A stretch of DNA of 33,898 nucleotides from Methanosarcinaceae archaeon (lineage in GTDB: Archaea > Halobacteriota > Methanosarcinia > Methanosarcinales > Methanosarcinaceae): positions 1-33,898 of the forward strand of contig JAFGOO010000103.1 of NCBI GenBank assembly GCA_016926455.1. The letters run 5' to 3'. The position numbers were made by a program, and so were the translations under genes. The notes beneath the pieces are model-generated. The model did no database searches. It saw only the letters and a program-made list of their open reading frames with translations, and was not told the DNA's origin. This document shows positions 9,130 through 23,057 of this stretch, one piece after another (within the stretch, counting starts at the first letter, position 1; each line of letters opens with the position of its first letter).

Positions 9130-10296
9130 ATGGCATTTGGAAATATTGACAACTGGATAGAGAGACACAAAGATGATATAGACGGCAATGGAAAAAAGAT
9201 TTACACGTGCATCCTTGATATGATGGAAATTGACGGCCTGTCCTACCATACTAAAACTTCTAATCTTGAGAATATAAAAAGGATAGGGGTATTGTGTCCT
9301 GAAATCAACTATTTCAAACTCACCGATGATGATATCCAAAAGATACAAGTTTCGATTGTTAAAAAGCATAAAAATAAGAAAACTGTTCGAAATTTAAAAA
9401 ACACTTTAAGAAAGTGGTTGCAGTGTTCGAATCAATCTGAACTTTTAAATTTGGTTAAGGCTGTAAACACCAAAAGCGCCGACAAATTACCCGATGATAT
9501 GCTGACACCGCAAGAGATTGAACTTATGTTGGATCATTGCACCACCACAAGAGACCAGGCGATAATCGCCTTGCTTTATGACAGTGGGTGTAGGGTTGGA
9601 GAGCTGTTATCTATGAGAGTTAGAGACGTGGAATTTGACGATAATGGCGCAATAGTCACCTATCCAGAGGGGAAAACTGGATGGCGTAAGAATCGTGTAG
9701 TATACGCAACAGCCTATTTGCGTCAATGGTTGGCGAACCATGAATACAAAAACAATCCAGAAGCACCTTTATTTTATTCTTTGCGAGGAGAGATCATAGA
9801 CAAGAATAAGGATGCATCACCAGAGAATAAAAGATTAAAGGGATTGACTGGTGAAGCTGTAAGGCGGCAGCTGCATATAATAGCTACAAATTCAGGTATC
9901 AAAAGGCGTGTACACCCTCATTTATTCAGGCATACCAGGGCGAGTGAGTTGGCAAACCACATGACCGAACAACAATTAAAGAAGCACTTCGGCTGGGGTG
10001 CAGGCAGTAACATGGCCGCTCTATACGTTCACCTTTCAGATCGTGATGTAGAAAAAGCTTTTTTGAAGGCAAGCGGAATAAAGGTCACAGAGGACGAAGA
10101 TAATAGACCGCAACCAATTAAATGTCCACGATGCAGAGAATTTAACCCACCGCAGGCCGCATATTGTTTCAGGTGTGGTTTAATGTTGTCACAGAAATTG
10201 GACAAAGAAGTAAATGAAGTTATGGAAGCCCTTAAAAAGAGAATAATGGATGATCCTAGTTTTTTGGTTGCCGCACTTAACAACCAAAAACCCTGA
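9130..10296 (+). CDS. Tyrosine recombinase (integrase) with C-terminal zinc ribbon
   Basis: 388 aa; catalytic motifs GCRVGELLSMRV, HPHLFRHTRASEL and ALYVHLS; C-terminal CPRC...CFRCG. Confidence 0.95.
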   Translation: MAFGNIDNWIERHKDDIDGNGKKIYTCILDMMEIDGLSYHTKTSNLENIKRIGVLCPEINYFKLTDDDIQKIQVSIVKKHKNKKTVRNLKNTLRKWLQCSNQSELLNLVKAVNTKSADKLPDDMLTPQEIELMLDHCTTTRDQAIIALLYDSGCRVGELLSMRVRDVEFDDNGAIVTYPEGKTGWRKNRVVYATAYLRQWLANHEYKNNPEAPLFYSLRGEIIDKNKDASPENKRLKGLTGEAVRRQLHIIATNSGIKRRVHPHLFRHTRASELANHMTEQQLKKHFGWGAGSNMAALYVHLSDRDVEKAFLKASGIKVTEDEDNRPQPIKCPRCREFNPPQAAYCFRCGLMLSQKLDKEVNEVMEALKKRIMDDPSFLVAALNNQKP

Positions 10297-11242: not shown

Positions 11243-14227
11243 ATGTCTGATATCAGAGACAAAGTAAAAGACAGACTCAGCATAATCGATATTGTTGGGG
11301 ATTACATAACGCTGACAAGGGAAGGTGCCGTTTACAAAGGCTCAAAACCGCCAGTACAAAACACTGGAAAAAGTTTAATCGTGTATCCTAATACGGATTC
11401 TTTCTACGACTGGAAAAATAAATACGGCGGTGACGTTCTAAACGCAATCGCTCATTTTGAGGATTTGGACATTAATGAACATTTTACAGAAATATTGCGG
11501 ATTGCTGCAAGGAAAGCAGGCATAGAATATCAAAAACAAGATCTTGACGTTGATAAACTCAGAGAGAAACAAAACATCCAAACCCTGTATTCAAACGTTG
11601 CCGAGTTTTACCACTCCAACCTGACCAACGAATTATACGAGCTGATTTTTAAAAAGTGGGGAATCACAAAAGAAACCGTTGATTCATATAAAATCGGATT
11701 CGCACCAGTCAATAATAAAAGAAATTCAATATTGGAAAAAACAGAAGGTGTTGACAGAAAGACACTGATCAAATCTGGACTTGTTTTTAATTTCGACGGT
11801 CGGCTTGTTGACTTTTACAATGGTAGAATCGTCTTCCCATACTGGAAAAATGGGAAAGTAGTATATTTCATAGCCAGGAAGGTTGAAGTACTCACACCAG
11901 AAAACGAATATGAGAAAGCTAAATACAAAAAACTCCTGACTCCAAAAAACCGATCTTATATAAGTGAAGTTGCAGGAAACGATTATCTTTATGGTGAGGA
12001 CTCGCTCAAAGGTTCTGACTACTGCATCATTACTGAGGGGGTAACCGACTGTATAACATTGCTGCAAAATGGTTACACGTCTATAAGTCCAGTGACCGTA
12101 GGATTTAGGGAAACCGATTACCCAAAACTGTTATCAGTGGCCAGAAAATTAGAGACTGTATATGTCTGCAATGATGACGAAATAGGGAAAGCGGGCATTA
12201 AAGGTGCTCTTAAAACAGCTAGATTCCTGAATGAAAATAATGTTTATGTCAAGATCGTCACTTTGGGAAGAGACGAAGGGCAGGAAAAGATAGACGTTGC
12301 AGAATTTTTGAGGGATAAGGGAAAGGACAAGCTAGATGAAAGAATCGAAGAAAGTCTGGAATTGTGGGAATTTGTATTAAATGAAATAAATATTTCGTCG
12401 TTAAAACCTGTAGATAAACTGAGGACTGCTAAAAAATATTGCATTGATGAACTTTCAGATATGGATCAATCAGAAAGAAAGACAATCATAGATTACAACG
12501 TCAAAGACGCATTTGGATTCAAGTCCACTGATATGGCGTCATTGATAAAGGACGTAGAGCAGGCAATAAAAAAGAACAATGATTCTAAAAAAGAAGTTGT
12601 CGAAACATCATCAACTCCGGATATAGACGAAGCAAAGGAAGCAATCAGAAAAAAAGCAATTGACATAATGGAACATGGCGAACCAGTGAAGTTTATTTTA
12701 GACACATTTAGCACTATTCATGTAGGAGACGAAGAAACCGCAAAAACGTTACTGGTGTCAATTGGTTGCCAGTCAGTTAAGAATAGTGAAGGCATACAGC
12801 CAAAAGTATCCGGTGGGTCGGGGAAAGGGAAAACACATTGCTGCAAAGCTATGTTATGGTTAATTCCACCTAAATACGCAATTTCAACCACATTAAGCGA
12901 TAAAGTAATCTATTACATGGATATTCCAGAAGGTTCTATAATTTTCTCAGATGATGTGAATTTAAATGAAACTATGGAAGGTGTGATAAAAAGGTCAACT
13001 ACAAATTATCAAGTAGGAGATACCCATACCACACTAGACGGTAACCGAAACGTTCAAAGTTTAACTATTCCTCCTCGTGTTTCATGGTGGTTAACATCTG
13101 TAAACGATGAACAAAGCATACAGTACTTAAATAGAACTTTTGGGGGAGATGTTAACGAAACAGAAAAGCAAGATAAAGACGTTATGAACTTCCAGTTAAA
13201 ACTAGCTGCAAATGGGTTAGATGCATATCCACTAAATGAAGATATTCTGATCTGCAGAGAGATAATAGAAGAAGTAAAAAACCACCTATTCAATGTAAAG
13301 ATACCATATGCTGAAGTAATTAAATGGGTTGACCCATCAAACAGACGAAATTTGAACATTTTTCTTGATATGATCAAAGCGTTTGCGGTGTTCAGGTTCA
13401 AGCAGCGGGTTATAGAAGACAACTTCCTTCATGCTATAATAGACGATTTTGATGATGCAAGTGTTTTGTACTCATGTAGAGCAGAGAATCAAGGACTCAA
13501 AATAAACAACAACGAAAGAAAACTGGTTAAATTCCTACAAGAAAGAAGAGCCGCAGACACAAAAGAAATACAAAAAGCGTTAAAGATTTCACAGGGAACG
13601 GTTCACAACTTGCTACATGGCAGGAAGGAAACTGATGATAGCGGGCTTTTGGGTAAAACGAATATGATTACTTGTGAGGATGTTACGGTTGACAATGGGA
13701 ACGGATTAAGGACTAAAAAATATATTTACAGATATATTGGTGAGGATGTTTTTAAAACATTCGAAAATAAAGTAGTATACATAGAAAACGATGACAGGAA
13801 CAACTATTACAACTATTACACGACTATTACACGACTATCAAATAATGAAAACAATATCAATAGAACCATTATTACAGATATTACAGATATAAAGAGTATT
13901 AATGAAAATAATAATAATGGGAACGATGATAGTCCTATATTTTCAAGTGCTTATAATACGTGTAATAGCTGTAATAGTGGTAATAATGAGGCTACCGCAA
14001 CTATTACATCAAAAAATAATGATGTAATAGTCGTAACCGATAGTGAAAACATTTTATTTATGGATATAAAAACGTTTGTTGGAGGCAGAAGTGACCAGAG
14101 AAAACTTAGAGCAAATAGAGAATATCAAAAAATGGCTTTTGCTTTCTGTGAAGCACATCGGGGCGTATACACGCTAGCAGTCGTTAAACCAATGATAGAA
14201 AAGATGGCGGAGTGTGGGGAAATATGA
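11243..14227 (+). CDS. DnaG-like primase fused to P-loop helicase/ATPase
   Basis: 994 aa: degenerate CHC2-like N-terminus, Toprim-like DYCIITEGVTDCITLLQNGY / VYVCNDDEIGKAG, Walker A GGSGKGKT, Walker B SIIFSDDVN, C-terminal HTH. Confidence 0.85.
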   Translation: MSDIRDKVKDRLSIIDIVGDYITLTREGAVYKGSKPPVQNTGKSLIVYPNTDSFYDWKNKYGGDVLNAIAHFEDLDINEHFTEILRIAARKAGIEYQKQDLDVDKLREKQNIQTLYSNVAEFYHSNLTNELYELIFKKWGITKETVDSYKIGFAPVNNKRNSILEKTEGVDRKTLIKSGLVFNFDGRLVDFYNGRIVFPYWKNGKVVYFIARKVEVLTPENEYEKAKYKKLLTPKNRSYISEVAGNDYLYGEDSLKGSDYCIITEGVTDCITLLQNGYTSISPVTVGFRETDYPKLLSVARKLETVYVCNDDEIGKAGIKGALKTARFLNENNVYVKIVTLGRDEGQEKIDVAEFLRDKGKDKLDERIEESLELWEFVLNEINISSLKPVDKLRTAKKYCIDELSDMDQSERKTIIDYNVKDAFGFKSTDMASLIKDVEQAIKKNNDSKKEVVETSSTPDIDEAKEAIRKKAIDIMEHGEPVKFILDTFSTIHVGDEETAKTLLVSIGCQSVKNSEGIQPKVSGGSGKGKTHCCKAMLWLIPPKYAISTTLSDKVIYYMDIPEGSIIFSDDVNLNETMEGVIKRSTTNYQVGDTHTTLDGNRNVQSLTIPPRVSWWLTSVNDEQSIQYLNRTFGGDVNETEKQDKDVMNFQLKLAANGLDAYPLNEDILICREIIEEVKNHLFNVKIPYAEVIKWVDPSNRRNLNIFLDMIKAFAVFRFKQRVIEDNFLHAIIDDFDDASVLYSCRAENQGLKINNNERKLVKFLQERRAADTKEIQKALKISQGTVHNLLHGRKETDDSGLLGKTNMITCEDVTVDNGNGLRTKKYIYRYIGEDVFKTFENKVVYIENDDRNNYYNYYTTITRLSNNENNINRTIITDITDIKSINENNNNGNDDSPIFSSAYNTCNSCNSGNNEATATITSKNNDVIVVTDSENILFMDIKTFVGGRSDQRKLRANREYQKMAFAFCEAHRGVYTLAVVKPMIEKMAECGEI

Positions 14228-14838
14228 CACCCCATGGAAGAGATCAACCCACAACCAGCGACATCGTGTTGAAGATGTTTGATAACTGGTCAGATTTGCC
14301 AAAGCTATATGACGCTGCAAAGGTGCGATATGCAAAGACGCAGGATATCAAAATGAATCGTATAGGGGATTCATACGCTGTTATTCTGGTCGCTGGGATG
14401 CTGTTGGAATCGGTTTTTGATGATTTTGGAATTGAGACTGTTAATCCTCATGAAGTAGTGGATTACTTTTATGAGAAAAGTTCGAATGATTCCAGGACCG
14501 AGAACTACTCGGTAAGAGCATTGCGTATAGTGATGGATTGGACAATTAGTAAAAACATGTGTTTCAGAGATCATAACGCAGAAAGCACCAAAAAATCGTA
14601 TGATTTCTACGGATGGTTGAACGTTGATAATGCATATCATGACTTCATTACATCGGAGTTAAGGAAGATGCTTATCGTTTCTGGGTTCGAACCAACGAGA
14701 CTAATTAATGATTGGTATGAGGACGGTTTGATAATAGCTGATAATGGAAGAAAAGACAAGAAAGTTTCGAAGGATGGTAAAATAATAAGGGTTGTTAGAT
14801 TTGCAAGGAGTAAGATAGACGATGTTCTTAGTCAGTAA
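14224..14838 (+). CDS. Hypothetical element protein
   Basis: Listed from 14212; ATG at 14224 gives an ATGA overlap with the primase stop; no family recognised. Confidence 0.7.
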   Translation: MTPHGRDQPTTSDIVLKMFDNWSDLPKLYDAAKVRYAKTQDIKMNRIGDSYAVILVAGMLLESVFDDFGIETVNPHEVVDYFYEKSSNDSRTENYSVRALRIVMDWTISKNMCFRDHNAESTKKSYDFYGWLNVDNAYHDFITSELRKMLIVSGFEPTRLINDWYEDGLIIADNGRKDKKVSKDGKIIRVVRFARSKIDDVLSQ

Positions 14839-14839
14839 T

Positions 14840-15050
14840 GGTACAGTTGGTACATACGATGGTACAGTTTTATGTAAATTTATTAGAAAAGTATATAATA
14901 AAATCAATAACAGTATACATGATAATAATAGGATATATAATAACTGTACCAACTGTACCAAATGTACCATCATATTTTACAACTTAGTATTTTCTCTATT
15001 ATTCTCTATAATATGCATGAAAGTGTTGGTACAGTTGGTACATTTGGTAC
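14840..15050. repeat. Iteron-like cluster of 9-bp GGTACANTT units
   Basis: Three groups: + strand 14840-14869, inverted 14942-14968, + strand 15028-15050; AT-rich spacers. Confidence 0.75.
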
Positions 15051-15128
15051 GAATGCTATCAAGAGGCTTAATTTTTGATAAAAAAGGATGGTCCATTGAT
15101 GGTCCATTGGACCAAGTGGTGATATAAA

Positions 15129-15608
15129 ATGTCAGAATTTATTAAAAATTACCTAAAAACCCTCAATGAATTAAACCATCCAGAGCAATATAAAAAAGAA
15201 GTCATGGATGTGAAACCTCCGGAAGAAAACAAAACACATGATAAAAAGAAATCATCTAAACATGAAGTGTGTAATGTTTGTGGGCAAGATGCACGTAACA
15301 AATCGGAGATAATCGATTATAGCACAGGAAGAAAAGAATTAATGTTGCTACATTGGTGTGATTTTTGTTATCGTGAATATACCAAGACCGGAGTATATCA
15401 CCTAAAAAAGAACACTCCTCCACAGGAAGAAACAGTTAAGAAAATAAAAACATTCGTCACATGCAATAAGGACCAAGAATCTAAACGGATTAGCCGAAAA
15501 TATCAAGATATTGCTTTTGACTTTTGCAAAGCACATAAAGGAGTATATGACAAACCATCAGAAATTAAAGAACTGATTGAAAAGATGGCGGAGTGTGGTG
15601 AAATATGA
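15129..15608 (+). CDS. Zinc-finger-like protein sharing its C-terminal domain with the primase-helicase
   Basis: 159 aa: CNVCGQ...HWCDFC, then KTFVTCNKDQESKRISRKYQDIAFDFCKAHKGVYDKPSEIKELIEKMAECGEI. Confidence 0.7.
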   Translation: MSEFIKNYLKTLNELNHPEQYKKEVMDVKPPEENKTHDKKKSSKHEVCNVCGQDARNKSEIIDYSTGRKELMLLHWCDFCYREYTKTGVYHLKKNTPPQEETVKKIKTFVTCNKDQESKRISRKYQDIAFDFCKAHKGVYDKPSEIKELIEKMAECGEI

Positions 15609-16006: not shown

Positions 16007-16028
16007 GTGATAAAGGGAAGCGGTGAAC

Positions 16029-19000
16029 ATGAAAGCAATTAATTTGATACTGGTCGCAATGCTTTTGATAACCATTGCAGGTACAGCAAGTGCGGAAGAA
16101 AAGAAGTTCAATTCAGTTTCAAGTACTGACTGGAATTTGAACGGCAAGATTTCAGTAGACAAAAATGCCGACCAGACAACATTAAAGTATAACGAAAAAG
16201 CCAAATCAATATCAATTAAATCAAGTGTCCATGAAACTAAGACAGTCAAAATAAAAGGTTCTGATCTTAAGAACCTGTTAGGCACGCAGGGCGGAGTATT
16301 GGGGATAACTCACATTTCGGACGATGGCAAGATTTCGAACTATCTTAAGCTTTATTCGGTGGATGTGGATGGATATGTTTATCTTGATTTAGAGTTCTCC
16401 GAGAATATCATTTCAGGATTCACAGGACACACTGTTTACACCGCTAATAATGTAACAGGCGACACCACTATTAATTTTAGTGAATCTATGGACGTATCAA
16501 GCCTGAATTGCTCGATTACACCCTTCGCAAATTGGCAGAAGTATTTTATTGTTAACATAACGTGTGCGAGTGATTACAACGGCGTGTATGCACTGACCAA
16601 CAGCGAATACACAATGACAGCAGACGAATTTAGTTCTATTGATGTTGATGGCGGCGGTCAGCCAATAATTAATGTCACCTATTCCAATGGCACATCAATA
16701 CCCTTCTATGCGTCAGTTTGGGCAGCAAGGGATAACTATACTTTGTTATTGAATGGTACTTTGCCAAGTGGTACGAACTTATACACGATAAAATATAACA
16801 CCACATCATACGCCACAAGTGCAGGAAACGAGAATAATATCTACAGTAGTACGGTTATATCCCAAAACAAAAGCGTTACAGCAAGTACAGCAGTAGCAGG
16901 ATATGAAGCTGTAAAGGCCAACGATGGGGATACAGCTACAGGATACAAAACTTCAGTTGATCATGCATATTGGGATGTTAACCTTTCAAGTAATTATGTG
17001 GTCGAGGACGTAAACATCTATAAGTTAGATGATGGCACAGGCGTACAATCTTCATTTAGATACGACATAGAATATTGGAACGGCTCTGCTTATGTGGATA
17101 CCTCCGCCGCAGATATGCTTTATGCTGACGGTGGCACAAGTCCGGATATATGGTATAACTATTCTATTACTCCGGTCACTACAAGTATAATTAGGTGGCA
17201 AATGAACTCTGCAACATCTAATTATGCAATGTTCCGAGAGTTGCAGGTTTACGGTTATCCAGTGGACGACTTCACGCCTGTTCTTAACAGTATGGATTCA
17301 TACAATTCTACAGATTCGTTTTATGTCAATGTTTCGGTTACAGGCGACCACAACAACAGCATTTATTCAAGTGGGGAAAACAAGGTTTTCGATTTAATAC
17401 CCACATCCGCAATAGATCATGTAGATATTGACACCAATTCAACCGATATGAGCTATAGCCTTACGTTGTATTGGACAGGCGACACCGTGCTTTATTCTGA
17501 AAGTGTAGATAATGGATATGCTAATATTACGGTTCTGTACACTCCGGCAGAAACCATAACGTCAGGTATCTTCAATGCCACCTATTCATTAATTGACTTT
17601 TCCGAACATGATTATATAGGTAGTTTATCATGCACGGTTGATGGGGCAGATAAAACCGCTTTCGCATCAAGAACTAATGAGGACGTGAACGTTTCAGTTT
17701 CAAACCTTGATACTTCTACACATTACATAAATTTCAGTATACCATTTAACCCGATCCCAGGCTTAAGCAGTCCGGCAGATTCCGCAAGCCTGAACTACAC
17801 ATATCCACCGTTAACCCATGATGTAGTATTGAATTGGACGGCGACCACTGGCATCTATTCGATTAGGGTTTACGAAGGTGCGAGTATTGTCTACCAATCG
17901 TCACCTACTACGAACACCGCCACCGCCACCCTTCCGGCAGGTTCGTATACCTGGAATGTAAGGGGATATGATGATGTGTTTGGGGAGTATTCGAGCTATG
18001 AAACAAGAAGTTTCAGTATTATAGATGAATATAATTACACTGATAACGAGACAGGAGTTCATGGCGTTGTTTATGAATCCCTTGCAGGAGTTGACACAGC
18101 AGTTAATGGGGCTTTGGTTACATGTTACAATGATACCTGGTCAGACGAATTGCTTACAGACGATAATGGTCACTATGAATTTTATAACATCAGCAACGGT
18201 ACATACTATTTGACCGTCACAAAAGACCGTTATAACACACCGCAAACACAAATCGTAACAGTTGTTAGTAGTGAAATGTATTTAAAAAATATATACATTG
18301 AACGTAACACTGGTGAATATTATTCTCGTCATGATGTACAGTTCGTTGTAAGATCATTCACAGGAACTACGTATCCGAATGTTGAAGTTAATGCTTACAT
18401 TGACTCTTCGAATGCATTGATGTATACCGACAGTACCGATAGCAGCGGTTCGGTTGTGTTTGCAGCAATGGATACAGATGTAAAATACAGGCTTACGTTC
18501 ATAAATGAGTCTCAAAATATAGATGAAGAGCAGACACTTTATCCTGTTGACACTTATTATGATATTTTTGTATTTGGTGCATCATTGATTCCAGAGGATA
18601 GAGAAACAGAAGATATTTTGTTTGGTGCCTATGGAAGCACAATAAACCTGACAAGTGGATATATAAATGTTACATATAATGATACATCAGAATCAACAAC
18701 ATTAGCCGAAGTATGGGTTAATTATTCCAGCAATGGTACAAATGTTCAATCTGCAAATTCAACTAATGATACTGATAGCTGGTCATGGGTTGTAGCTGGT
18801 GGGAATGAATCATACATAGTTCATTTCAGGATAAACACCACAGAACTAGATGATCCACTGGATGTAACAAGGACAATATCATTTCATGATGTTGTAACAG
18901 TGGGATTGGGTTATGATTCAGCCTGGAAATATCAATTTACAGCATGTTTTATACTTGTTGCCTTAGCACTATTGGCCAGTAGACAGAATGCAGAGAAGAT

Positions 19001-19157
19001 GGCTGTCATACTCGTGTTGGCAGGTTGGGGATTGGTATCAATCGGCTGGCTTACTGTAGGACTATCAGCAGGCGAGAAACTCACGTTAGGATTAATGATG
19101 TTGTTGGGTACAGTAATCGCCTTCGGTGCCTCGATAAAAGCAGGAGAGGATAGGTAA
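16029..19157 (+). CDS. Large secreted, C-terminally membrane-anchored spike/adhesin-like protein
   Basis: ~1042 aa from ATG 16029; signal peptide (INLILVAMLLITIAGTASA), many N-x-S/T sites, F5/8-like segment (YVVEDVNIYKLDDGTG), carboxypeptidase-regulatory-like segment, three C-terminal TM helices. Confidence 0.8.
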   Translation: MKAINLILVAMLLITIAGTASAEEKKFNSVSSTDWNLNGKISVDKNADQTTLKYNEKAKSISIKSSVHETKTVKIKGSDLKNLLGTQGGVLGITHISDDGKISNYLKLYSVDVDGYVYLDLEFSENIISGFTGHTVYTANNVTGDTTINFSESMDVSSLNCSITPFANWQKYFIVNITCASDYNGVYALTNSEYTMTADEFSSIDVDGGGQPIINVTYSNGTSIPFYASVWAARDNYTLLLNGTLPSGTNLYTIKYNTTSYATSAGNENNIYSSTVISQNKSVTASTAVAGYEAVKANDGDTATGYKTSVDHAYWDVNLSSNYVVEDVNIYKLDDGTGVQSSFRYDIEYWNGSAYVDTSAADMLYADGGTSPDIWYNYSITPVTTSIIRWQMNSATSNYAMFRELQVYGYPVDDFTPVLNSMDSYNSTDSFYVNVSVTGDHNNSIYSSGENKVFDLIPTSAIDHVDIDTNSTDMSYSLTLYWTGDTVLYSESVDNGYANITVLYTPAETITSGIFNATYSLIDFSEHDYIGSLSCTVDGADKTAFASRTNEDVNVSVSNLDTSTHYINFSIPFNPIPGLSSPADSASLNYTYPPLTHDVVLNWTATTGIYSIRVYEGASIVYQSSPTTNTATATLPAGSYTWNVRGYDDVFGEYSSYETRSFSIIDEYNYTDNETGVHGVVYESLAGVDTAVNGALVTCYNDTWSDELLTDDNGHYEFYNISNGTYYLTVTKDRYNTPQTQIVTVVSSEMYLKNIYIERNTGEYYSRHDVQFVVRSFTGTTYPNVEVNAYIDSSNALMYTDSTDSSGSVVFAAMDTDVKYRLTFINESQNIDEEQTLYPVDTYYDIFVFGASLIPEDRETEDILFGAYGSTINLTSGYINVTYNDTSESTTLAEVWVNYSSNGTNVQSANSTNDTDSWSWVVAGGNESYIVHFRINTTELDDPLDVTRTISFHDVVTVGLGYDSAWKYQFTACFILVALALLASRQNAEKMAVILVLAGWGLVSIGWLTVGLSAGEKLTLGLMMLLGTVIAFGASIKAGEDR

Positions 19158-19158
19158 T

Positions 19159-19566
19159 ATGCGAATATACCACATAGCTTTATTTTTCGCATTGATCGGT
19201 GTTCTTACTGGAATGGTAGACTACATCATGATAGATGCAGGTGGGGAAAACTGGTTTGAACAGGAACCTCCTGATATGGAATTGGTAAGTCTAACGTCTG
19301 ATGACATTGACAGCATCCAGTTTGATGAAATGGGTGCAAAAGTAGACGACTCGATGAGCCTGATAAAATATACTAACATATTCTTGAAAGTATTGCAGGG
19401 TGTATTCTTGATCGTCACGATGCTAGATGATTTTCTAGTATACGATGTTGGTGGAGTCAACCTGTTCGCACCAGTGTTGGTTATGTTCCAGGGAGTAATC
19501 TATTTCATTTACATAACAGGTGCAGGACAGTTTATCCTTAACAGGAACATGAAGGGGATGGAGTAA
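19159..19566 (+). CDS. Membrane protein of virion-like operon
   Basis: 135 aa with N-terminal and C-terminal hydrophobic segments; stop/start overlap with next gene. Confidence 0.75.
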   Translation: MRIYHIALFFALIGVLTGMVDYIMIDAGGENWFEQEPPDMELVSLTSDDIDSIQFDEMGAKVDDSMSLIKYTNIFLKVLQGVFLIVTMLDDFLVYDVGGVNLFAPVLVMFQGVIYFIYITGAGQFILNRNMKGME

Positions 19567-19856
19567 TGACTGTATTAGACGACCTGTTCAATGTAACATC
19601 ACCGTTTGACATAGTGACAAATTACTACGATCTTGCGGAGTCAGTCACCAACGGACTATTCACAATGACAGCAATACCGCTAATTTTCTTTGCTAGCTGG
19701 TTACTGACAGGGAAAGTGGTTTTACCAGCCACACTATTCAGTATAATTGGTGGTTTTCTGCTAGCAGTAGCACCATTCGAACTAAAAAAAGTAGCTCTGT
19801 TAATGTTCGTGTTTGGTGTTGGCGGTCTTATATACACATGGTTTAAAGATAGGTGA
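19566..19856 (+). CDS. Small multi-TM protein
   Basis: 96 aa with about three hydrophobic helices. Confidence 0.75.
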   Translation: MTVLDDLFNVTSPFDIVTNYYDLAESVTNGLFTMTAIPLIFFASWLLTGKVVLPATLFSIIGGFLLAVAPFELKKVALLMFVFGVGGLIYTWFKDR

Positions 19857-19860
19857 AATT

Positions 19861-20181
19861 ATGTCAATGAAAATGTTAAAAGATATACATGGTAATGTGG
19901 AGATGATACATCAAACCCTTATAATAGGCATCACTTTAGCAACTTTGTGGATCATAACTCTTGTAGTACCGCCAATATTCCAATTAATTCCAGCACTAGC
20001 AGCAACAATGGATACGGAAGGGCTTTATTATTTCGATGTTGTAGCAAAGTTCAATACTGCAATAAAGGCGTGGTATTTCTTTTTGATATTGTCTACTGCT
20101 GTAAGTTTCGTTCATCTAGGACTACTGGCAATCAAAAAACAGAGATACACAGGGGGCAATGAATATGAGTCTGATTTCTGA
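19861..20181 (+). CDS. Small two-TM protein
   Basis: ATG at 19861 preferred over the listed 19813 (MSMKMLKDIHGN...); two hydrophobic helices. Confidence 0.7.
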   Translation: MSMKMLKDIHGNVEMIHQTLIIGITLATLWIITLVVPPIFQLIPALAATMDTEGLYYFDVVAKFNTAIKAWYFFLILSTAVSFVHLGLLAIKKQRYTGGNEYESDF

Positions 20182-20452
20182 TGAAAGAGCAGGGCTATTT
20201 GGTCTGTTCCTGTTCTTTGTTCTTATGATATTCGCACTTACAGTGTATGCAGTCGAAAAACCTGTCATTGATGAACTTGATGCAGCATTCGATGACGATT
20301 ATCGTGATGCATACCTGACAACCGAAGGAAAAGAAACCGCAGACATGTTGAAATATATCCTTGAATCGGTTTTCGTGATTGGCGTGTTAATTGCAGGGGT
20401 AATTATGGTTATAAACAGATCAATATACAAAGGACGTGACAGTAATGGCTAA
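20159..20452 (+). CDS. Small two-TM protein with acidic loop
   Basis: 97 aa; helices flank DELDAAFDDDYRDAYLTTEGKE; overlaps neighbours. Confidence 0.7.
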   Translation: MNMSLISDERAGLFGLFLFFVLMIFALTVYAVEKPVIDELDAAFDDDYRDAYLTTEGKETADMLKYILESVFVIGVLIAGVIMVINRSIYKGRDSNG

Positions 20453-23057
20453 AAGAGGGGGTGTCGATTACGGACACAATCTAAAAGCCGCACTCCACGC
20501 AGGAGAGAGCGGCAGTTCGAGCAGTTCAAGCGGTTCTAGTTCATCCAACAACAAGGCTCACATGGTTGAGATGACAGAAGCGGAACGTGTTGCAAACCAG
20601 AAGATACTCACAACATCAGAAAGGGAAGCAATACAGGCACAGAAAGACAAAGTAAAAGCGGCAGCAATAGCGGCAGATGCGGAAGCAAACGCAAGATTAC
20701 AATCTGCTGTAGAGTCTGGTCAAGTGGAGAGTGCGAAAGAAGCACTTAGAACAGTGGCAAGAGCCAACGCCAACGCTGCATCGATTGAAAGAGCATATGA
20801 AGCAGGTGCAATGGCAGAACCCACAAACACTTCTATAATACCAGAAAAGGATATGCACTGGACAGAAGCCCAAACATCATCACCGCAACCATCTAATGAG
20901 CCATACACTCCTGAGTTACCTCGTCTCAATGTTCCACCAGGCACAACGAGGGCTAGTTTGGTTCCATCTGTCAATACACAAACCAACTTACCCAAGCCTG
21001 ACATGGGTAAAAAGGCACAACTTGAAGCACAACAGGCACAGACAAGGGCTACTTTGGAATTGCTACGCAGGGAGATCGAATCTGGTAGAACAACTCTTGA
21101 TTCATATCCAATAGAGGACAATCAATTCCAGGGAACCGAAGCGGAATATGCAAGGTACGTTGACGTTCACGCAGAATATGAGAAGGACATAGCAGAATAT
21201 AACAGACTGGTTGACCAGAACAACATACTCAAAAATGATATCAGACGTTCTTCTTATTTCGGTCTTGCTGGAATGCTGGAAGATTCAAACAAGTTCTACG
21301 CTGACAGGTTACCAGATTATGAAACTTTGGTTAAAAAAGCACACTTAGAAACCAATTCAAACAACCGTGTTCTCAATGACCTTAACGCATTTGCAAAAGG
21401 GGCTTATGAACAGGTTGCAGAACACCCCATAGAGACGGTGGGAACTGTTGGATTAGGTCTTGTAACTGCTGGTTCTTTCGCATTAGGCGGTAAAGTGGCC
21501 AGTGGTGTAGTTGGCTCGTCACTAAGTGCAGGAACCAAAAAAACAGCTAGTAATCTCATTGGTTTGGGGTTGGGTTCTCTTTATGTAGGCACTGAATACA
21601 AGGCGATAGCCGCACCAGTTGAAACCGAAGAAGGAGTGAGAGCACCTACAGAAACAGAGATGTTTGAACGTGCTGGCGGTGCAGGAGTTCGAGCAGGTGC
21701 TTTAGTTACTGGATTCAAACTTTACACTAAAACAGGTGGAGAATTACCTTTCAGTATTGCAAGATCGAACAAAGACCAGACACTTCTATTTAAAAAATCA
21801 GATGTGTATATGTCAGAACCTAAACCTGATTTTCTTGAAACACTCCCTTCGACCAGGCTTAGAAACCAAAACACTCCTAGGGTGTTCACTACTGGTGAAG
21901 GGGCATACAAGGATGTGTATCTTGAAATCCCAAAAGGAAAGGAAACGAAGTTTTTGAGAGAATATCCAACAGGCGAGTTCAAGAACATCAGATCGGGAAA
22001 AGAGAGTTTTCTTTCTTTTGAACCTATGGAATCAACTGGAAAACAGAACACTCTTGCTAGCATATCTAAAAAGATTCCGACCAGAGCATACCCTAAACTT
22101 ATGGCTACCAATGGTCGCAAAATGCCTTCAATACCTTCCATTGCTGGCTACAGAGCAGAGAAAAAAATACCCCTTAGAGAAGTATACCTTTCGATGCAAC
22201 GTCTCAAAGACGTGCCTAAAATACCCGAATTTGCGGCATCAAGAACGATAAATACGAAGTCTGAATGGTTGGGATATGAACCACAGAAAACGACTGTTTC
22301 AGAGACGTTTAAACAAAGGAGTTTCGAAGCACGTACAGACATGAGAAGGATGATGCGAGATACAGCCGCAAAGATGGATTATTCTGGATTGGGGCAAGCT
22401 GGAACGCAGCCAAAAACCAAATTGAAGGATAAAACAACAATAAAAACCTTCAATGAGCGGATATATCCGAAAATGGACATTGAACCAATCGGGAATACTC
22501 GTGTTGCTGGTAGAAGGGGAAGTAAGCGATCCGTAGATGATATAATGAAATCTGGATACAAGGATGTGGCCAAGGAAATGCGGATAACTGCAACGCCTAA
22601 GAACATTGGGAAACCGTTGAAGAAACCAGGCAGTAAAGGCAGTATGTTTGGTGCATCATCTTTGTTTGGCAGGTCACCATTCACTGGTAAAATGCCAATG
22701 GCAATGAACGCTATCGGTAAAGCACCATTTAAAGCACCTGGTCAGGAAATATACACTCCAATAATGCCAAAACTTAATCCGTTGGGTTCCAGTAAGAGTT
22801 TACCGTCCACAAAGGCAATGGAATCTACCGCAACGCTGGCAAAGTCATCTACTAAAAATATTAGAGTAGCAGGTATGAAAAGTGGTGTACGTGTACCAAC
22901 ATTACCACCGCTAATATCGTTGAATAGCAACGGTGGCAAAGTAAAACGAAGGAACATACGCACAAAGAAGTATGATTGGTATATTGAAAACCCAATAGCT
23001 TCACCGTTTGCAAGTATAAAAACACCAAAGAAAACTAAAAGGAGTAAAAAGAAATGA
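20445..23057 (+). CDS. Large structural-type protein: Ser-rich N-terminus, coiled coil, Gly-rich hydrophobic centre, very basic C-terminus
   Basis: ~870 aa from ATG 20445; GTVGLGLVTAGSFALGGKVASGVVGSSL; ends KTPKKTKRSKKK. Confidence 0.7.
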   Translation: MAKRGGVDYGHNLKAALHAGESGSSSSSSGSSSSNNKAHMVEMTEAERVANQKILTTSEREAIQAQKDKVKAAAIAADAEANARLQSAVESGQVESAKEALRTVARANANAASIERAYEAGAMAEPTNTSIIPEKDMHWTEAQTSSPQPSNEPYTPELPRLNVPPGTTRASLVPSVNTQTNLPKPDMGKKAQLEAQQAQTRATLELLRREIESGRTTLDSYPIEDNQFQGTEAEYARYVDVHAEYEKDIAEYNRLVDQNNILKNDIRRSSYFGLAGMLEDSNKFYADRLPDYETLVKKAHLETNSNNRVLNDLNAFAKGAYEQVAEHPIETVGTVGLGLVTAGSFALGGKVASGVVGSSLSAGTKKTASNLIGLGLGSLYVGTEYKAIAAPVETEEGVRAPTETEMFERAGGAGVRAGALVTGFKLYTKTGGELPFSIARSNKDQTLLFKKSDVYMSEPKPDFLETLPSTRLRNQNTPRVFTTGEGAYKDVYLEIPKGKETKFLREYPTGEFKNIRSGKESFLSFEPMESTGKQNTLASISKKIPTRAYPKLMATNGRKMPSIPSIAGYRAEKKIPLREVYLSMQRLKDVPKIPEFAASRTINTKSEWLGYEPQKTTVSETFKQRSFEARTDMRRMMRDTAAKMDYSGLGQAGTQPKTKLKDKTTIKTFNERIYPKMDIEPIGNTRVAGRRGSKRSVDDIMKSGYKDVAKEMRITATPKNIGKPLKKPGSKGSMFGASSLFGRSPFTGKMPMAMNAIGKAPFKAPGQEIYTPIMPKLNPLGSSKSLPSTKAMESTATLAKSSTKNIRVAGMKSGVRVPTLPPLISLNSNGGKVKRRNIRTKKYDWYIENPIASPFASIKTPKKTKRSKKK

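Follow-up and report, generated by a model that had tools for sequence, protein, structure and literature searches.

Does the run of short repeats that follows a primase-helicase gene in a Methanosarcinaceae archaeon mark a replication origin and, if so, which protein would read it? The window, that is, the whole stretch of DNA analysed (33,898 nucleotides), corresponds to contig C155 from an assembly of 1.6 Mb that is 77% complete and that, judging by its genes, looks archaeal and methanogen-like. It carries a putative element that begins near a tyrosine integrase gene (9130–10296, plus strand), the product of which shares 58% identity with the integrase of another element, located on contig C206 of this assembly. 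The putative element also has further genes without family matches. No attachment-site repeats of 12 bp or longer were detected, and excision or att sites were not found. A sequence-only reading had proposed a candidate origin at 14840–15050, consisting of iterated 9-bp units in direct and inverted clusters that flank an unwinding region, just after the primase-helicase gene and a partner gene. As detailed below, this is supported as the best reading of the locus, although replication itself is not shown.

We refer to these repeats as array B. Its GGTAC units start at 14840, 14849 and 14861 in cluster 1 (14840–14869, plus strand; GGTACAGTT GGTACATAC GAT GGTACAGTT), at 14946, 14955 and 14964 in the inverted cluster 2 (14942–14968, minus strand; three units with a 9-bp period), and at 15028, 15037 and 15046 in cluster 3 (15028–15050, plus strand; again three units with a 9-bp period), which gives spacings of 9 and 12, 9 and 9, and 9 and 9 bp, respectively. 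The three clusters and their orientations held base for base, and the claim of very AT-rich spacers held too: spacer 1 (14870–14941, 72 bp, with a AACAGTATACA box) is 86% AT and spacer 2 (14969–15027, 59 bp, with a TTAGTATTTT box) is 78% AT, against 60% for the window overall. Spacer 1 is a possible unwinding region, its melting being inferred. Cluster 3 is followed by a TTTTTGATAAAA box (15071–15082, plus strand) and, directly before the next start codon, by a variant group that the sequence-only reading had missed, GGTCC-11bp-GGTCC / GGACC (15090–15113; two units on the plus strand and one on the minus strand). The stretch 15087–15114 reads GATGGTCCATTGATGGTCCATTGGACCA, an iteron variant with C replacing A that is perhaps an operator.

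The repeats can be all but excluded as a coding by-product or a chance occurrence. An open frame (14822–15127) does cover the array, as such an explanation would have it, but TGGTACA occurs eight times in array B, a count that none of 2000 dinucleotide shuffles of the AT-rich stretch itself reached (maximum 5), and relatives encode no conserved protein at this place. Long open frames over the array occur in two related loci (L070 and L005) without such a protein, and the frame is broken in a third (L071), so the suggestion that this ORF is a by-product appears correct. Across the 33.9-kb window, GGTACANTT is present in seven copies, all within the array B stretch, as compared to 1.18 expected, and 0 of 100 shuffles attained this number. 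No other copy of the double unit, GGTACANTTGGTACA, was found anywhere in the 1.6-Mb assembly.

The first unit of array B starts 2 bp past the stop codon of a stand-alone winged-helix gene (14224–14838, plus strand; 204 aa), the start codon of which overlaps the primase-helicase stop. This is the partner gene of the sequence-only reading, and its placement ahead of the cluster held. Its product matches Pfam HTH_56, "Cch helix turn helix". A PDB search with the single window sequence yielded nothing useful and a profile was required; the profile of this winged helix and its relatives hit SaPIbov1 Rep (8tch, E 6e-18) and SCC Cch (5dgk, E 2e-16). Foldseek with the structural model likewise ranked SaPIbov1 Rep and SCC Cch at the top, followed by TcpK bound to oriT DNA. 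In a phage collection we found no match to the winged helix, and only distant DnaG primases. This homology shows the product of 14224–14838 to be the C-terminal origin-binding domain of a DUF927 helicase of the SaPIbov1 Rep/SCC Cch family, here separated from its helicase, whereas its DNA binding is inferred. In nearly all other genomes this winged helix forms the C-terminal end of a 570–1093 aa frame, with DUF927 present in the frames scanned (including L070, L071, L005 and L078), and the window element is the only one in which a stand-alone copy was seen. Moreover, the sequence-only reading requires correction here, since the natural DUF927 partner helicase is absent from the element and none was found in the 77%-complete assembly. 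A working two-part initiator thus remains unproven, because the partner is not found and the stand-alone form is seen only here.

In relatives, the DUF927-HTH_56 gene ends in a stop codon that is immediately followed by iterons, the words of which differ by element: GGTACA in L070, GGTAAC in L071, GGTTACA in L005, TGTCACA in L072, L074 and L075, TTCACAA in L073, ATAACCA in L077, GGTATG in L080 (six direct copies at 11 bp), GTGGAAA in L085 and GCCGGAC in L078. Significant arrays follow the stop in 19 of the 26 winged-helix loci, against 1/26 and 3/26 control stretches; the remaining seven loci show no clear array there. Blind scans of 20 kb placed the top repeat cluster 0–750 bp after the stop of the winged-helix-helicase gene in 13 of 22 regions (binomial p ~1e-13). 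L073, L074 and L075 display a two-cluster form, with clean inverted triplets around 65–85 bp of AT-rich DNA. The near relatives L070 and L071, the latter despite its different word, keep the three-cluster plan of the window along with three boxes, namely the ACAGTA core of AACAGTATACA, TTAGTATTTT, and TTTTTGA, the part of TTTTTGATAAAA that is invariant in both; TTTTTGATAAA, from the same box, is present in L005 too. Iteron-like units also recur in relatives at the position matching the 15090–15113 variant group.

Conservation of the exact word was rejected. Matches to GGTACANTTGGTACA in other genomes of the order sit in unrelated sequence, several of them inside one conserved gene, and none was noticed behind a winged-helix-helicase gene; the iteron word itself is therefore not conserved. 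The sequence-only reading would have been refuted by repeats not conserved in relatives; position and layout of the array are conserved and the word varies. A changing word on a constant plan is the pattern expected of an initiator with its own binding sites, but the direct test, a correlation of iteron word with winged-helix relatedness, was weak and not significant (Mantel rho 0.22, p 0.06). Together, the homology of the winged helix and the arrays behind the stop of that domain in relatives support the candidate-origin claim.

These comparisons bear on two further explanations. In the first, array B is an operator through which the winged helix, as repressor or activator, controls the promoter of the following gene (15129–15608), without any replication role. 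Its location between two genes and the variant units right before the start codon speak for this possibility. On the other hand, two distant triplet clusters plus an inverted one and AT-rich spacers exceed the needs of an operator, the winged helix belongs by fold to a family of origin-binding helicase domains, and the layout recurs where the following gene differs, all of which make an operator unlikely. In the second, the inverted clusters act as a DNA or RNA hairpin, similarly to the stem-loop origin of the crenarchaeal plasmid pRN1, which depends on a stem-loop of 100 nt located downstream of the gene for replication (PMC4234260). The array B strand does fold better than its shuffles (z −4.7), but foldback is expected anyway because the binding sites are inverted. 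Several relatives (e.g., L080) have directly repeated units without a hairpin, and the sequence yielded neither an Rfam family match nor a predicted terminator. We consider a hairpin very improbable.

Array B is not the sole candidate origin; the sequence-only reading had also missed a second, unrelated array within the primase-helicase gene. This gene (11243–14227, plus strand) encodes a DnaG-type primase, an MCM-fold AAA+ helicase, a winged helix, a linker that holds array A, and a tail. The Pfam scan recognized the DnaG-primase domains, did not match lambda O and, at the threshold used, named no AAA+ helicase domain. The structural model of the helicase region (pLDDT 84) shows an MCM-like AAA+ domain together with a winged helix, and its top Foldseek matches are MCM (E ~1e-6, TM-score to the query ~0.5). 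Relatives join the same helicase core to other primases, AEP-TOTE in L096 and Prim-Pol in L094 and L106. Array A (13804–14029), uncovered by the blind repeat scan described above, comprises nine TATTACA copies in both orientations and three reading-frame/strand registers, past the primase-helicase's own winged helix and ahead of its tail. None of 100 codon-preserving shuffles (synonymous permutation) reached the observed score. As the copies occur in different frames and on both strands, selection acts on the DNA. Array A is shown as a repeat array; its function is inferred, and it stands as an equally strong candidate origin and a complete alternative to array B.

The arrangement extends to the family at large. 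Significant in-gene arrays (0–1 of 100 codon-preserving shuffles), each with its own word, were identified in 13 genes, that is, the window gene and those of L090, L091, L092, L093, L094, L096, L099, L101, L103, L104, L106 and L107. A survey of 397 genomes sampled from the phylum recovered the MCM-fold primase-helicase family in 90 of them. Its arrays are often in-gene, in several frames and on both strands. An array lies just after the winged helix in 23 of the 29 loci assessed, 19 of which are outside the family of the window's host, against 3/29 and 4/29 controls. The array tends to fall within those genes that run on beyond the winged helix, and behind the stop codon of those that end with it. 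These data suggest that the elements contain origins of their own and in many cases translate through them, the origin function being inferred. In L103 (G140:C2), the primase-helicase frame is broken by one TGA and the array persists in the downstream part. L095 (G151:C6) is an 18,044-base contig made of a head-to-tail repeat with a unit of ~9,028 bases (9.0 kb), 8259 of 9016 positions being identical at a fixed offset; here, primase and the same kind of helicase occupy separate frames, and the array lies at the 3' end, meeting the tail gene. Such a near-identical repeat is as expected of a circular or tandem form, which is one possibility.

How array B came to lie behind this gene is hinted at by the tail. 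The gene directly after array B (15129–15608, plus strand) encodes CxxC-type cysteines and a C-terminal tail domain that it shares with the C-terminus of the primase-helicase (57% identity). Genome G147 has both arrangements: L106 carries the tail as a fusion behind its in-gene array, L070 carries it as a separate gene behind its intergenic array, and the two tails are 72% identical over 60 aa. The order of winged helix, iterons and tail is therefore constant, both with and without a stop codon ahead of the iterons. Furthermore, a 1.38-kb segment (14228–15608) containing the winged-helix gene, array B and the tail gene is bounded by 30-bp direct repeats (14198–14227 and 15579–15608, both on the plus strand) that are identical at 29 of 30 positions. 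Each repeat overlaps the start codon of the next gene. If the flanks of the segment were joined, the next gene would regain its overlapping start. The shared tail and the bounding repeats are shown; the insertion history is inferred from what looks like an origin cassette, captured from a DUF927-type element via recombination at the tail.

The main rival builds on these same observations. It holds that array A is the working origin and that array B with its winged helix is a captured, non-initiating segment that controls copy number, excludes rivals (through incompatibility, or by serving as a decoy against those DUF927-type elements that use the word GGTACA) or simply idles. In its favour, array A is intact and the polypeptide encoded across it supplies a winged helix of its own, the helicase that normally bears a B-type domain was not found, and the bounding direct repeats suggest insertion. 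Against it, array B is at least as regular as that of L070 and the winged-helix frame is intact, so that neither resembles decay. We regard this array-A-only view as a serious contender that falls short of an even chance.

The likely explanation, in our judgment, remains that array B is a set of iterons bound by an initiator, as in origins of the SaPI/SCC (PICI) type, and that it arrived as a cassette, with binding, melting, recruitment, firing and insertion history all inferred. In this account, the winged helix encoded by 14224–14838 would bind the GGTACA units. With oppositely oriented clusters occupied in this way, the intervening AT-rich DNA would open, at which point the primase-helicase encoded just upstream (11243–14227) would be recruited and loaded at array B. 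The segment formed by winged helix, array B and tail would derive from a DUF927-helicase element and have been inserted behind an unrelated MCM-fold primase-helicase, which would have kept array A within its coding sequence for use by its own winged helix. A bolder reading, which we put forward only as a possibility, is that a movable origin module of archaeal mobile elements (winged helix, iterons, tail) swaps between unrelated helicases, that one large MCM-fold family is translated through its own origin, and that the window element captured a second module and so has two origins, of which one is recognized by an origin-binding protein that lacks a helicase.

Precedents for both arrays have been described. 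The C-terminal domain of SaPI Rep acts on iterons directly downstream of its own gene (PMC7581432), PICI origins, located immediately 3' of the gene for the initiator, have two iteron sets on either side of AT-rich DNA (PMC6092414), and SaPI/PICI origins, located immediately 3' of rep, drive plasmid replication (PMC6092414, PMC7581432). The window shares with SaPIbov1 Rep, SCCmec Cch and the PICI origins a homologous origin-binding winged helix and iteron clusters flanking AT-rich DNA immediately 3' of it. It differs in being archaeal, in having three main clusters and two AT-rich spacers instead of two clusters, in iteron words that are unrelated from element to element, and in its winged helix, a separate protein that lacks the fusion to a DUF927 (or D5-type) helicase characteristic of PICI/SaPI-SCC initiators. 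Array A resembles the phage lambda origin in gene O, with iterons and AT-rich DNA within the initiator coding sequence (PMC3349717), and meets the definition of a lambda-type intragenic origin as iterons in the initiator gene under DNA-level constraint. Unlike lambda, however, it is archaeal, has units in both orientations, and lies in a gene that does not belong to the lambda O protein family and encodes an MCM-fold primase-helicase, the helicase part of which matches MCM AAA+. To our knowledge, the array A system has no known counterpart of the phage lambda helicase loader. The Sulfolobus minimal replicon of pRN1 ORF904 similarly pairs an archaeal primase-helicase with an essential region directly downstream, although a stem-loop rather than iterons is described there and the helicase is of another class (PMC4234260). 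The primase-helicase-HTH-Zn proteins of archaeal "dark matter" islands (arCOG07809, Mpal_2033) have the same domain order in small integrated elements; no iterons were reported there, and any membership of the window protein in that group would rest only on this likeness in domain order (PMC4158269).

The SaPI/PICI-type layout and its homologous binding domain are now seen in archaeal elements. The in-gene iterons of the family found in 90/397 sampled genomes yield a simple rule, namely to search the DNA immediately 3' of the codons for the winged helix. Applied to archaeal proviruses and plasmids, this rule would point to candidate origins in many of them. Such candidates would be useful for shuttle vectors and for testing the loading of MCM-like helicases without Orc1/Cdc6.

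Two side observations concern the surroundings of the elements. The second element of the assembly (L107, G000:C206) has a CRISPR array at 1–1040, with 14 repeats of 37 nt and spacers of 34–36 nt, ~450 bases past its primase-helicase gene; none of these spacers matched the window. Within the window itself, 16023–23057 encodes a large protein that has a carboxypeptidase-regulatory-like domain. After it come small proteins, apparently of membrane type, and an 873-aa protein without family matches; these might be structural genes of a provirus.
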